DNA from: Bdellovibrio sp.
GTDB taxonomy: Bacteria > Myxococcota > SpSt-1050
Reading direction: 5' to 3'
NCBI GenBank assembly: GCA_020725805.1
Contig: DYEF01000089.1
Coordinates: 1 to 7,327 of the forward strand
Length of the DNA: 7,327 nt
Below are positions 3,973-7,327 of this stretch, in pieces; position 1 is the first letter of the stretch; every line of letters starts with the position of its first letter. Under the pieces are notes generated by a model. That model ran no database searches. It was not told the DNA's origin and saw only the letters and a list, made by a program, of their open reading frames with translations. Made by a program: the position numbers and the translations under genes.

Positions 3973-4061
3973 GGAGAGATGTCCGAGAGGTCGAAGGAGC
4001 TCCGCTCGAAACGGAGTGTCCCCTTTGGGGACCGGGGGTTCGAATCCCTCTCTCTCCGCCA
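3973..4061 (+). tRNA. tRNA-Ser (anticodon CGA)
   Basis: A complete serine tRNA, 89 nt including an encoded CCA. The acceptor stem GGAGAGA (3973-3979) pairs with TCTCTCC (4051-4057), followed by G and CCA. The anticodon stem CTCCG/CGGAG encloses loop CTCGAAA, with CGA at 4007-4009, which reads UCG. The long class II variable arm is a perfect 6-bp hairpin, GTCCCC-TTT-GGGGAC (4018-4032). The T arm is GGGGG-TTCGAAT-CCCTC. It is first in a tandem pair, and its first 18 bases are identical to those of the next tRNA. Confidence 0.97.
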
Positions 4062-4075
4062 GAGAATTGGACTAC

Positions 4076-4169
4076 GGAGAGATGTCCGAGAGGTTTAAGG
4101 AGCACGATTGGAAATCGTGTGTGTGGACTAAAATTCACACCGTGGGTTCAAATCCCACTCTCTCCGCCA
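4076..4169 (+). tRNA. tRNA-Ser (anticodon GGA)
   Basis: A complete serine tRNA, 94 nt including CCA, starting 14 bases after the first. The acceptor stem GGAGAGA (4076-4082) pairs with TCTCTCC (4159-4165). The anticodon stem CACGA/TCGTG encloses TTGGAAA, with GGA at 4110-4112, which reads UCC and UCU. The variable arm is a long hairpin, GTGTGGA/TTCACAC. The T arm is GTGGG-TTCAAAT-CCCAC. The acceptor stem and D-arm match the CGA isoacceptor, as expected for recognition by one seryl-tRNA synthetase. The SRP RNA follows after 8 bases. Confidence 0.97.
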
Positions 4170-4177
4170 TTTTTTAT

Positions 4178-4272
4178 GGCCGGGCCCTGCGCGACGTGAG
4201 GATTACAAACCCCGTCAGGTCCGGAAGGAAGCAGCGGTAGTAATATCTCCGGGTGCCGCAGTAAGCCTGGCC
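4178..4272 (+). ncRNA. ffs: Signal recognition particle RNA, small 4.5S type
   Basis: The RNA core of the signal recognition particle, which binds Ffh and directs nascent membrane and secreted proteins to the FtsY receptor. The conserved Ffh-binding domain is plain at 4214-4235, with GTCAGGTCC, the GGAA tetraloop (4223-4226) and GGAAGCAGC. The ends pair: GGCCGGGC with GCCTGGCC (8 bp, one G-U), an internal loop, then CTGCG with CGCAG. The result is a single long hairpin of about 95 nt, so it lacks the Alu domain of the larger Bacillus and archaeal forms. A T5 run at 4273-4277 directly follows the closing helix. Ends are placed by the pairing and could be off by a few bases. Its place between serine tRNAs and dnaX is a widespread arrangement. 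Confidence 0.93.
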
Positions 4273-4277
4273 TTTTT
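4261..4277 (+). terminator. Likely intrinsic terminator: SRP RNA closing helix plus T5
   Basis: The 3' strand of the SRP terminal helix ends in GGCC at 4269-4272 and is followed immediately by TTTTT. The long SRP hairpin itself would serve as the terminator stem. This would separate the RNA transcript from dnaX, although read-through is possible. Confidence 0.5.
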
Positions 4278-4308: not shown

Positions 4309-5925
4309 ATGACTTATCTGGTTTTTGCAAGAAAATACAGACCTATGACCTTTGACGAGGTGGTGGGGCAGCAGCATATCGTAAAGACACTGAAAAATTC
4401 TATCCTTAATAACAGGCTTCACCACGCATTTATATTTGCGGGTCCCCGTGGTGTAGGGAAGACCACGACAGCCCGAATCCTTGCAAAATGTCTCAACTGT
4501 GAGACCGGAATAACGGTTACTCCCTGTAATAAATGTTCCGTCTGTAGTGAAATTACCAGCGGCTCATCTATGGATGTTCAGGAGATAGATGCTGCGAGTC
4601 ATACAGGTGTTGACAATGTGAGAGATATCATTGATAAGGTTGCCTATACTCCCATAAAGGCAAGGTATAAGGTCTATATAATAGACGAGGCTCATATGCT
4701 TTCGAAGGCAGCATTCAATGCACTCCTGAAGACCCTCGAGGAGCCTCCTCCGCATGTCAAATTTATTTTTGCAACTACCGAGCCCAACAAGATTATCCCG
4801 ACTATTACTTCCAGATGCCAGAGATTTGATTTCAAGAGAGTCGAGAATGCAGATATAGTTGCTCATCTCGAAGAACTGCTGAAAAAAGAGAATTTCAGGT
4901 ATTCACGTTCTGCTCTCTCCGTAATAGCAAGAGAGGCGCACGGCTCTGTAAGAGATTCTCTGTCGATTCTTGAACATATTGTCTCTTTCTCAACAGGTGA
5001 TGTAAATGAAGAGGCAATAACGAGGGCACTCGGACTTATCAGCAGAGGGACGATTATTAAACTGTTCAGGCATATACTCAACAAGGAAAAGTCAGAGGCA
5101 GTAGAGATTATCGATGAATCGTATATGGCAGGTTTTGACCTCCAGCTGCTCTTCAATGAACTCCTTGCGCTGACGAGAAATGTTCTGCTCCTGAAGATAG
5201 GGCAGGGGAAGATAATTTATAACGACCTTACGGATGAAGAGGTTGAGGAATTAAAGCCGTTACTCAGTCAGTTTACTACGCAGGGACTTCATATGCTCTT
5301 TGATATATTCTTCAATGCCTCAGAGGAGATAATTAAAAGTGAGCATCCTCTCTTTACAGCCGAGATTGCTGTTCTGAAGGCCATTACCGTATCTTCACTG
5401 AGACCGATTGAGGAGATAATTCAGAAGTTTGAGAATCTTGAGAGAAGGATTGGCTCAAAAGGTGTATCTGCTCCGGACAAATCAGGCTCAGGTTTGCAGA
5501 CAAGGCAGCCGGAGAAGGTGAATCTGGACCAGCCGGAGATATGGCTTAAAATAATTGAAGAGACAAAGAAGAGAGGGAAGATCCCTCTCGCAAGTATTCT
5601 TGAGGACGGGGTATTCATTTCATTTGATGACAACAGGATGAAAATCGGTTTCAAGGGGGCTGTTCAGCTTGCATCGGCGAGGGAGAAGAAGAATACAGAT
5701 TTCATCAAACAGATTCTGAAGGATATTTACGGCCGTGAGATCGAACTGATAATACAGGACCTTACTATTGCGGAAAAGACGGCATCTTCTGTCAGTGAGG
5801 AGATTTCAAAAAAAAAATCTGAATCAGCCCGGAGAGAGGCAGAAGAGATGATTCAGCACCCCGTTGTGCAGACAGCAATAAAGATATTCAATGCAAAGAT
5901 TACAGACGATAAGGACAGGAAATAA
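4309..5925 (+). CDS. dnaX: DNA polymerase III clamp-loader subunit tau/gamma
   Basis: A 538-residue AAA+ ATPase that with delta and delta-prime loads the sliding clamp and, as tau, couples polymerase cores to the helicase. The N-terminus MTYLVFARKYRP is the classic family start, fixing the ATG at 4309. Walker A is GPRGVGKT (45-52). The zinc module has C64, C73, C76 and C79, the same positions as in E. coli. Walker B is DEAH (126-129), the SRC arginine-finger motif is at 168-170, and sensor 2 is GSVRDSLSILE (212-222). The collar domain runs to about residue 370, followed by a linker and a C-terminal domain from about 405 to 490. The last 20 or so residues (HPVVQTAIKIF) resemble the conserved DnaX C-terminal tail of many bacteria. 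An A10 run at codons 500-503 may be a programmed slippage site. No Shine-Dalgarno sequence precedes the ATG. The stop TAA overlaps the recR start. Confidence 0.97.
   Translation: MTYLVFARKYRPMTFDEVVGQQHIVKTLKNSILNNRLHHAFIFAGPRGVGKTTTARILAKCLNCETGITVTPCNKCSVCSEITSGSSMDVQEIDAASHTGVDNVRDIIDKVAYTPIKARYKVYIIDEAHMLSKAAFNALLKTLEEPPPHVKFIFATTEPNKIIPTITSRCQRFDFKRVENADIVAHLEELLKKENFRYSRSALSVIAREAHGSVRDSLSILEHIVSFSTGDVNEEAITRALGLISRGTIIKLFRHILNKEKSEAVEIIDESYMAGFDLQLLFNELLALTRNVLLLKIGQGKIIYNDLTDEEVEELKPLLSQFTTQGLHMLFDIFFNASEEIIKSEHPLFTAEIAVLKAITVSSLRPIEEIIQKFENLERRIGSKGVSAPDKSGSGLQTRQPEKVNLDQPEIWLKIIEETKKRGKIPLASILEDGVFISFDDNRMKIGFKGAVQLASAREKKNTDFIKQILKDIYGREIELIIQDLTIAEKTASSVSEEISKKKSESARREAEEMIQHPVVQTAIKIFNAKITDDKDRK
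5797..5856 (+). promoter_or_regulatory. Candidate programmed frameshift / slippage element in dnaX
   Basis: Three elements lie in order: SD-like GAGGAG (5797-5802), ten consecutive A (5808-5817) covering S500-K503, and an exact 8-bp inverted repeat CTGAATCA (5819-5826) / TGATTCAG (5849-5856) with a 22-base loop. A -1 shift reads AAA-ATC-TGA and stops at 5820-5822, giving a 504-residue product. Losing one base of frame the other way also stops within about a dozen codons. The heptamer at 5808-5814 leaves a 4-base spacer to the stem. In E. coli, dnaX gamma is made by a -1 ribosomal frameshift with the same three parts; in Thermus, by transcriptional slippage on an A run. Function here is inferred. 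Confidence 0.55.
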
Positions 5926-6521
5926 TGCTGTTTGATGAGACTGTTGAAGGTGCGCTGACTGTAATAAGAAGACTCCCGTTTATAACAGGCAGAACGGCCA
6001 AGAAGATTCTTTTCTTTCTCCTGAAAAACCGGAAGACATATACTCAGGAACTCATAAAAGTCCTTGAGAAGCTTACCTTTATCGGTGAATGCAGTATGTG
6101 CAATATGCCGTCAAGTACAGATGTCTGCAATATATGTTCCTCTCCCAAAAGAAGTGACAGGGAACTTATTGTAGTCGAAGATTTTTCTGACCTTTTTACA
6201 ATCGAGCAGATGGGAGAATACAACGGCAAATACTTTCTTCTGAACAGAAGGCTTGATATAAAAAACGGAGTCGGTCCTGAAAACCTTGGTATAGAAAAAC
6301 TCATAGAAGTTGTTCAGGCAAGAAGGGTTCAGGATATCATATTTGCCTTTGACCAGAGTCCCGAGATGGAGGCTACAAAGACACTCATTGCCGAAAGATT
6401 GAGACCTCTTGATGTCAGTTTATACTCAATTGCAGTCGGACTTCCTTTCGGCTCGGAAGTTGAATTTACAGACAAGAGAACCATAAAATATGCCTTGCTC
6501 AATAAGATAAAAATAGATTAA
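5925..6521 (+). CDS. recR: Recombination mediator RecR, divergent
   Basis: RecR works with RecO (and RecF) to load RecA on SSB-coated single-stranded DNA at gaps. The length of 198 residues is normal for the family. In order: an N-terminal helix-hairpin-helix region (LPFITGRTAKK, 17-27), a C4 zinc finger (C56, C59, C68, C71), a Toprim domain (about 80-175) beginning LIVVED, with NGVGPENLGI (114-123) and EMEAT (147-151), and the Walker-like C-terminal segment IAVGLPFGSEVEF. Several usually conserved residues differ: the hairpin glycines of LPGVGPKSA are replaced (FIT), the GHLSP-type motif reads RRLDI, and EGEAT reads EMEAT. The ATG shares its A with the dnaX stop (TAATG), so translation is probably coupled. 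AGGA (5917-5920) inside dnaX gives a ribosome site 4 bases from the start. The usual ybaB gene between dnaX and recR is missing. Confidence 0.93.
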   Translation: MLFDETVEGALTVIRRLPFITGRTAKKILFFLLKNRKTYTQELIKVLEKLTFIGECSMCNMPSSTDVCNICSSPKRSDRELIVVEDFSDLFTIEQMGEYNGKYFLLNRRLDIKNGVGPENLGIEKLIEVVQARRVQDIIFAFDQSPEMEATKTLIAERLRPLDVSLYSIAVGLPFGSEVEFTDKRTIKYALLNKIKID

Positions 6522-6566: not shown

Positions 6567-7327
6567 TTATCTGTCGACCAGAAATCCCCTTGCTGTGCAG
6601 GAGGCAGTTCTTGTATAGCAGGAGCATTCATAATCACAATCGTAGTATGTGCACTGTGTCGCGACGGATAATTGCCCGAGGCAGCTTGAAGGTCTCGAGC
6701 AGGTATTCTGATAATTCGGACATTCGTATACTGTGATACCCTGAGTTGCCTTTATCCTTCCTGCAACGGTGAGCATCTGGTCGGGAGCAGTGGTCCCGAT
6801 TCCCACTTTTCCGTCAGCGTTGAATACGACCTTTGTACCTGCTGAACCTCTGTGAAATCTGAGTTGTCCGGAACCTTTTGTCCCGACGACGTCGATATTC
6901 CATGAGTTTGTTGTCTCTCCGACAGTTGTCGTGTTTGTGTCATTCAATACCAGTTGGCCTCCCTCACTTGCATCTCCTTTTATTGTAACATTCGTTACAA
7001 ATGCCGCTACACCGTTGACATCAAGTTTTGCACCCGGGAGATTGTTCCTATTCCTACATTTCCGCCCGATACTACGAACTGACCTCCTCCTACATTGAGA
7101 CCGTCTGACGGAAGATTCAGTGCACCGGTCATTGTGTCTCCTGCACGGTTAACAGGCGTATATCCTATGGCATCCTGCTTGGCATCGAATCTCTGGTAAT
7201 CGGCCGATGAGAGATATCCGTTCGTTGTAGCCGTGGCCTGCTGTATCGATATCGTCCCGCTCGTCGTTATCGGTCCCCCCATGAGCGGCGCCGCCGTGTT
7301 TATCTGTGTAACCGTTCCGCCTCCGCT
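6567..7327 (-). pseudogene. Second tail-fibre-like gene, 5'-partial and frameshifted
   Basis: Read on the minus strand, the gene enters from beyond base 7327 and ends with TAA at 6567-6569. The first part (7327 to about 7046) encodes GGPITTSGTIS, a QDAIGYTPVNRAGDTMTG block and the beginning of a GNVGIGT block, all closely related to the protein at 1-1308. In that frame it stops at TAG (7007-7009). In the next frame the expected text continues: PGAKLDVNG, then a second GKVGIGTTAPDQMLTVAG block, and a tail with eight cysteines in its last 50 or so residues, ending GFLVDR. The two parts are joined if one base is restored near 7034-7046, so this is one gene with a one-base loss, either real or a sequencing error. 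An ATG at 6947 could start a short remnant, but its N-terminus falls mid-domain. A cell-surface or fibre role is inferred from the modules. Confidence 0.75.
7158..7327 (-). repeat. Long inverted repeat, right arm
   Basis: Reverse complement of 544-713 with three mismatches in 170 bases. It lies in the second tail-fibre-like gene, in the matching codon phase, so exchange between arms would preserve both reading frames. It reaches the last base of the window, so its outer limit is unknown. Confidence 0.93.

Follow-up and report, generated by a model that had tools for sequence, protein, structure and literature searches.

A putative transcriptional slippage site in front of the polymerase-binding tail of DnaX in a Bdellovibrio sp. 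genome and in other bacterial lineages

Background

The dnaX gene of Thermus thermophilus is subject to transcriptional slippage on a run of nine A residues according to Larsen (2000), as cited in PMC1088944 and PMC4320859, and its shifted frames both run into UGA, at distances of 2 and 16 codons from the run (PMC4320859). In a second group of dnaX genes, tau is made from two open reading frames by recoding at 7-10 A residues (GeneTack cluster, PMC3711429; the main text does not name Aquifex), and in Caulobacter gamma arises by proteolysis of tau (PMC5009743, PMC4456610).

The dnaX gene analyzed here is located in the window, the complete stretch of 7,327 nucleotides from contig DYEF01000089.1 of a Bdellovibrio sp. 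assembly (GCA_020725805.1). It resembles the Thermus gene in its late poly-A run, the single full-length tau reading frame, the UGA codons occurring soon in both shifted frames and the short gamma-like product, which is here predicted from sequence, but the run comprises ten instead of nine A residues. With E. coli dnaX it shares a -1 stop codon located one codon past the slippery site, an upstream element similar to a Shine-Dalgarno sequence and a possible downstream stem; unlike E. coli dnaX with its A_AAA_AAG site (slippery codons AAA AAG), it has a run longer than a heptamer and a stem that is not conserved, and its short form retains domain V, whereas E. coli gamma is devoid of domains IV and V. 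As in the two-ORF genes, a poly-A run joins or splits tau and gamma, but tau is the zero-frame product in the genus of the window. The reversed polarity of the two-ORF genes is shared by the Aquificaceae, in which the -1 frame contains only a short tail and not a large open reading frame. Like the Caulobacter pathway, the locus would represent another independent route to a DnaX protein unable to bind the polymerase, with homopolymer slippage proposed here in place of processing at the protein level. The window dnaX can be regarded as a variant of known dnaX recoding, and a precedent for the reversed polarity exists in principle (PMC3711429). The tail-only cut and the Aquificaceae case were not found in the open-access papers searched, and priority is uncertain.

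Results and discussion

The dnaX locus and its A10 run

The features of the locus are compiled in Table 1. The overlap of the dnaX stop with the recR start is common to the window genome (G000) and a congener (G001); the ybaB gene, which separates dnaX from recR in E. coli, is absent at this position (5923-5927). The block of tRNA, SRP RNA, dnaX and recR genes is flanked by two open reading frames for fibre-like repeat proteins that face each other (1-1308 on the forward and 7327-7007 on the reverse strand), parts of which constitute the arms (544-827 and 7044-7327, 85% alike) of a 284-nt inverted repeat.

Table 1. Features of the dnaX region, with positions given in window coordinates.
Feature	Position	Strand	Evidence or remark
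tRNA-Ser genes (two)	3973-4061, 4076-4169
Small SRP RNA	4178-4275
dnaX, DNA polymerase III subunit gamma/tau, 538 aa	4309..5925	+	TIGR02397, 458 bits; Pfam DnaX domains
Predicted folded domain V (residues ~408-484), in both products	5530..5760	+	AlphaFold2 pLDDT above 90; weak structure hits
GAGGAG, Shine-Dalgarno-like (Glu497-Glu498), putative role	5797..5802	+	Same codons in congener locus L086
Slippery A10 (codon 500, third base; Lys501-503)	5808..5817	+	Exactly A10 in both species
Tail present only in full-length DnaX	5818..5922	+	Alpha-binding peptide of E. coli tau matched in alignment by residues 517-538 (5857-5922)
8-bp stem with 22-nt loop, probably not functional	5819..5856	+	Imperfect in congener
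UGA ending the 504-aa product (one A added, or -1 shift)	5820..5822	+	Matching place in congener (501 aa)
UGA ending the 513/514-aa product (one A lost, or two added)	5849..5851	+	Matching place in congener (510/511 aa)
recR	5925..6521	+	Start overlaps dnaX stop (TAATG); TIGR00615, 150.7 bits, slightly under cut-off

In the zero frame the run reads TCA AAA AAA AAA TCT and includes two in-frame A_AAA_AAA heptamers (5808-5814 and 5811-5817). With one A inserted, or after a -1 shift, the reading continues as ...KKKI and then meets UGA; the loss of one A yields 513 residues, the addition of two 514 and the loss of two 503, and any slip that is not a multiple of three terminates before residue 515. 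The GAGGAG element, the A10 run, the 8-bp stem and the -1 UGA, all named in the first-pass annotation, were found to be exact, base for base. An assembly error was rejected as the source of the run, since the conserved tail is in frame with the A count found in both assemblies. As an outright loss of tau should be lethal, phase variation of the run in the DNA itself is unlikely.

Conservation of the run in a congeneric species

The relatives included in the comparison, ranging from genus to class level, were the congener G001 and G002; dnaX was not found in G002, and a pattern scan of viral contigs gave no match. The DnaX protein of the congener is 82% identical to that of the window. The run consists of exactly ten A residues in both species, although the preceding codon changed from TCA to ACA, and the UGA stops of both shifted frames occupy matching places, as in the Thermus arrangement. 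Persistence of the run despite free synonymous choice, one of the predictions made from the window alone, was thus borne out in the one congener compared. AAG is about as common as AAA for lysine in these genes; the AAG-recoded version of the run is AAGAAGAAG.

In 48 pairs of open reading frames from sampled stretches, 42% of the conserved residues were specified by an identical codon, and conserved lysines encoded by AAA were still encoded by AAA in 247 of 379 cases (65%), so that three retained AAA codons alone are not striking. Within the pre-stated span of codons 496-516, 13 of 16 codons were identical, compared with 45% elsewhere in dnaX (p ~0.009, amino-acid-stratified shuffles). A gene-wide scan of synonymous conservation ranked this cassette first for segments of 12 and of 15 codons, but as a maximum over the gene the value was not significant.

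Long A runs are depleted from the genes of both genomes

Runs of at least ten A or T residues occur at five sites in the whole window genome (3.29 Mb) and at seven sites in that of the congener (3.0 Mb). Two A runs of at least ten are coding in the window genome, in dnaX and in the final codons of a TPR-repeat gene, and three in the congener, comprising the orthologues of both genes and a run located nine codons before the end of a 573-aa open reading frame; the remaining sites are intergenic, and several of them are promoter-like or terminator-like. Synonymous shuffles of sampled genes predicted ~1.9 coding A runs of at least ten per 284 kb, or roughly 20 genome-wide, for the window genome and 3.8 per 159 kb, or roughly 60 genome-wide, for the congener, these expectations being slightly high as the samples, taken from a background set and from stretches around sites of interest, contain the A10 genes themselves. 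Accordingly, such runs are depleted about 10- to 20-fold (2 versus ~20 and 3 versus ~60). Purging of this strength is a sign that such runs slip, following the criterion of Baranov (2005; PMC1088944). The combination expected of Thermus-type slippage, a conserved A run of at least nine in dnaX against a background of genes purged of such runs, is present here, and the dnaX run is the only coding A run of at least ten in either genome whose slippage would remove a conserved part of a protein.

Isolated A9 or T9 sites number 19 in the window genome and 27 in the congener. None of the coding A9 sites of the window genome with A on the sense strand has an orthologous run in the congener; runs at orthologous places were seen for a single coding pair of T9 sites and a single intergenic pair.

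Several other homopolymers were recorded. The A10 of the TPR-repeat gene (L116:2126-2135 on G000:C72; L124:2025-2034 on G001:C74) forms the last codons GAA AAA AAA AAC TAA, and slips would lengthen the protein by a few residues. An orthologous 439-aa protein with an apparently FHA-like N-terminal region has a T9 run conserved in both species (L179:1499-1507 and L205:1553-1561); this sense-T run encodes Phe-Phe in a predicted membrane segment and is a candidate slippage site. The window genome additionally contains, in three copies (L115:118-128, L117:2178-2190 and L118:305-318), an element composed of TTGACATC, 11-14 A residues and TGGTATATTTT, which resembles a sigma70 promoter with a homopolymer spacer and is located upstream of short open reading frames whose beginnings resemble those of secreted proteins. 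These three elements are candidates for phase-variable promoters.

The predicted short product lacks the putative polymerase-binding tail

When aligned to E. coli tau, the C-terminal sequence HPVVQTAIKIFNAKITDDKDRK falls on the final 22 residues (622-643), NNIQTLRRFFDAELDEESIRPI. In E. coli cryo-EM structures, the last 22-23 residues of tau (622-643) bind the polymerase tail, as stated in PMC4703070 with reference to Jergic 2007. Among 23 aligned C-terminal regions, P518 is one of only two columns with at least 90% identity, which supports the earlier proposal that the loss of 34 residues affects a conserved tail. An AlphaFold2 model was computed for residues 380-538, in which residues 485-538 were mostly of lower confidence; a fold search placed the tau domain V structures 5fku, 5fkv and 2aya in the top five, with weak E-values of 0.014-0.026.

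The short form does not follow the classic gamma layout, which ends after domain III and lacks domains IV and V, since it keeps domain V. By homology, it would nevertheless lack the segment that binds the alpha subunit of Pol III and would thereby correspond functionally to gamma. The contrast that the first-pass annotation drew with a classic tau/gamma pair is overstated, since the segment removed matches the end of E. coli tau by which alpha is bound. A DnaX protein ending before this segment should therefore resemble gamma although less is cut off: clamp-loader function and domain V should be retained, and polymerase binding should be lost. Judged from the sequence, the functional distinction between tau and gamma appears to be achieved here by a minimal cut.

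A runs in front of the DnaX tail recur in other lineages

In a set of 43 dnaX genes, consisting of those of the window, the congener and distant species, the last 45 codons contain six A runs of at least nine, compared with 1.8 expected, several of the six being interrelated and three belonging to the Aquificaceae; the rest of the gene contains one such run, compared with 2.5 expected. The A8 runs of distant Thermodesulfovibrionales dnaX genes are located inside domain V and were rejected as not homologous in position.

Exactly nine A residues are present just before the tail in 21 Aquificaceae genomes (L221-L223, L227-L237, L246, L251, L253, L263, L267, L268 and L270); a further locus, L239, also carries A9 but has gapped downstream sequence. 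In all 21, the zero frame ends ~7-13 codons past the run without the tail, mostly with ...SLF, ...KLF or ...TLF, and the -1 frame encodes the conserved tau tail, for example ESVLKVMELFNAKVVKYERK; a -1 tail peptide to be expected in Aquifex or Hydrogenobacter would be AVLKVKELFNAK. The loci span G+C contents of 38 to 59%, and the A9 is the sole A run of at least eight in each of the 17 genes checked. Past the zero-frame stop, diversity at codon positions 1, 2 and 3 of the -1 frame is 0.27, 0.16 and 0.55, respectively, which is the pattern of a translated frame. In other family members, a run of this kind is absent and the zero frame itself encodes the tail. The protein-coding pattern of the -1 frame is evidence at the coding level that the Aquificaceae do make use of poly-A slippage ahead of the DnaX tail, apparently with reversed polarity. 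A plain reading of these genes in the style of an annotation would miss the tail. A review (PMC3290774) states that A. aeolicus dnaX yields only the full-length product in E. coli; if this is the zero-frame product, it would be the tail-less form.

In a third lineage, locus L045 and its relative L283 (86% identical) carry A9 directly before the tail, where one extra A results in an immediate UAA; in L282 and L283 of the same family (isolate SI072_bin15) the run is located 19 codons before the dnaX stop and ahead of the motif INDIVELFEG. Taken together, these cases incline us slightly towards the view that slippage between domain V and the alpha-binding tail is a recurrent, convergent switch producing a minimal gamma, in which tau would be the default in the genus of the window and in the L045 family, and gamma in the Aquificaceae including Aquifex, where tau would be made only via slippage.

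Proposed mechanism and alternative explanations

From the run, its rarity and conservation, the stops in both shifted frames and the homology of the tail, we infer that the A10 is a programmed transcriptional slippage site generating tau-like and gamma-like DnaX, and we assign a probability of about two in three to this reading, in which the occurrence and rate of slippage and the failure to bind alpha are the deduced parts. The A9 runs at the corresponding spot in the Aquificaceae and in L045 and L283 lend it independent support. RNA polymerase would add or drop A residues at the run and thereby produce a mixed mRNA pool. Transcripts with 10 (or 10±3n) A residues would direct synthesis of the 538-aa tau, and the others would reach a UGA within 2 to 11 codons, giving DnaX proteins of ~503-514 residues that retain the ATPase, the collar and the folded domain V and are devoid of the C-terminal peptide binding Pol III alpha. 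The tau-like subunits would tether the polymerase, and the gamma-like subunits would load clamps without it.

Against selected slippage stand the comparison with a single congener, the 65% retention of AAA, the lack of gene-wide significance of the codon conservation and the conserved A10 located three codons from the end of the TPR-repeat gene, which shows that such runs can be tolerated near a 3' end. An inherited A10 in dnaX might likewise slip slightly and yield a waste product without selected function, which would also agree with the position of the third coding run of the congener, nine codons from an end, and with the probability of 0.65 per codon that AAA is kept. A slip in dnaX, however, removes a conserved tail that includes P518, so that unselected slippage should have been purged as it was elsewhere, and the reappearance of runs at this point of the protein in further lineages would be left unexplained. 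Mere tolerance is therefore considered unlikely.

The same 504-aa product could be generated by -1 programmed ribosomal frameshifting of the E. coli type on A_AAA_AAA, stimulated by GAGGAG and the hairpin. The two in-frame heptamers, the GAGGAG located 5-8 nt upstream and the 8-bp stem downstream are suited to this mode of recoding. The GAGGAG is retained in the congener, as the first-pass annotation had anticipated, but this is weakly informative, since the element encodes Glu-Glu and GAG remains GAG in about half of the cases anyway. The stem, which that annotation had likewise expected to be conserved, was not kept. Its arms, CTGAATCA (5819-5826) and TGATTCAG (5849-5856), pair perfectly in the window, where a stem of this length arises in 1.4% of random synonymous codings, a marginal value, and folding gives a z-score of -1.35 if the flanks are included, a value of -2.3 being reached only on trimming to the stem. 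In the congener, a change of GAA to GAG gives a G-U pair and a change of CAG to CAA abolishes the closing pair, leaving seven pairs that are no better than random; the minimum free energy is -4.5 versus -10.8 in the window. The stem furthermore begins 1 nt past the A run (1-4 nt past a heptamer), closer than classic spacers, and was rejected as a stimulator because of its lack of conservation. Retention of the run without the hairpin suggests that the run itself is the selected element, which points to transcriptional slippage. Ribosomal frameshifting would also leave the stop codon of the other shifted frame without a role. Transcriptional slippage of the Thermus type is hence favoured, and ribosomal frameshifting is held to be improbable.

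That early termination serves to uncouple the overlapping translation of recR and to tune the RecR level, as the TAATG overlap in both species might suggest, is very improbable, as a run anywhere in the gene would suffice, and neither its placement just before the tail nor its recurrence as a toggle of the DnaX tail in the Aquificaceae and L045 would be explained.

Conclusions

Reviews term the role of gamma in bacteria unclear. If the proposed slippage is true, the selected property would be the loss of polymerase tethering and not the loss of domains IV and V. In the Aquificaceae, the polymerase-binding tail would then exist only by way of slippage, so that the zero-frame DnaX of these bacteria would lack it, and replisomes may have been reconstituted with a tail-less Aquificaceae DnaX where the gene was simply taken at face value.
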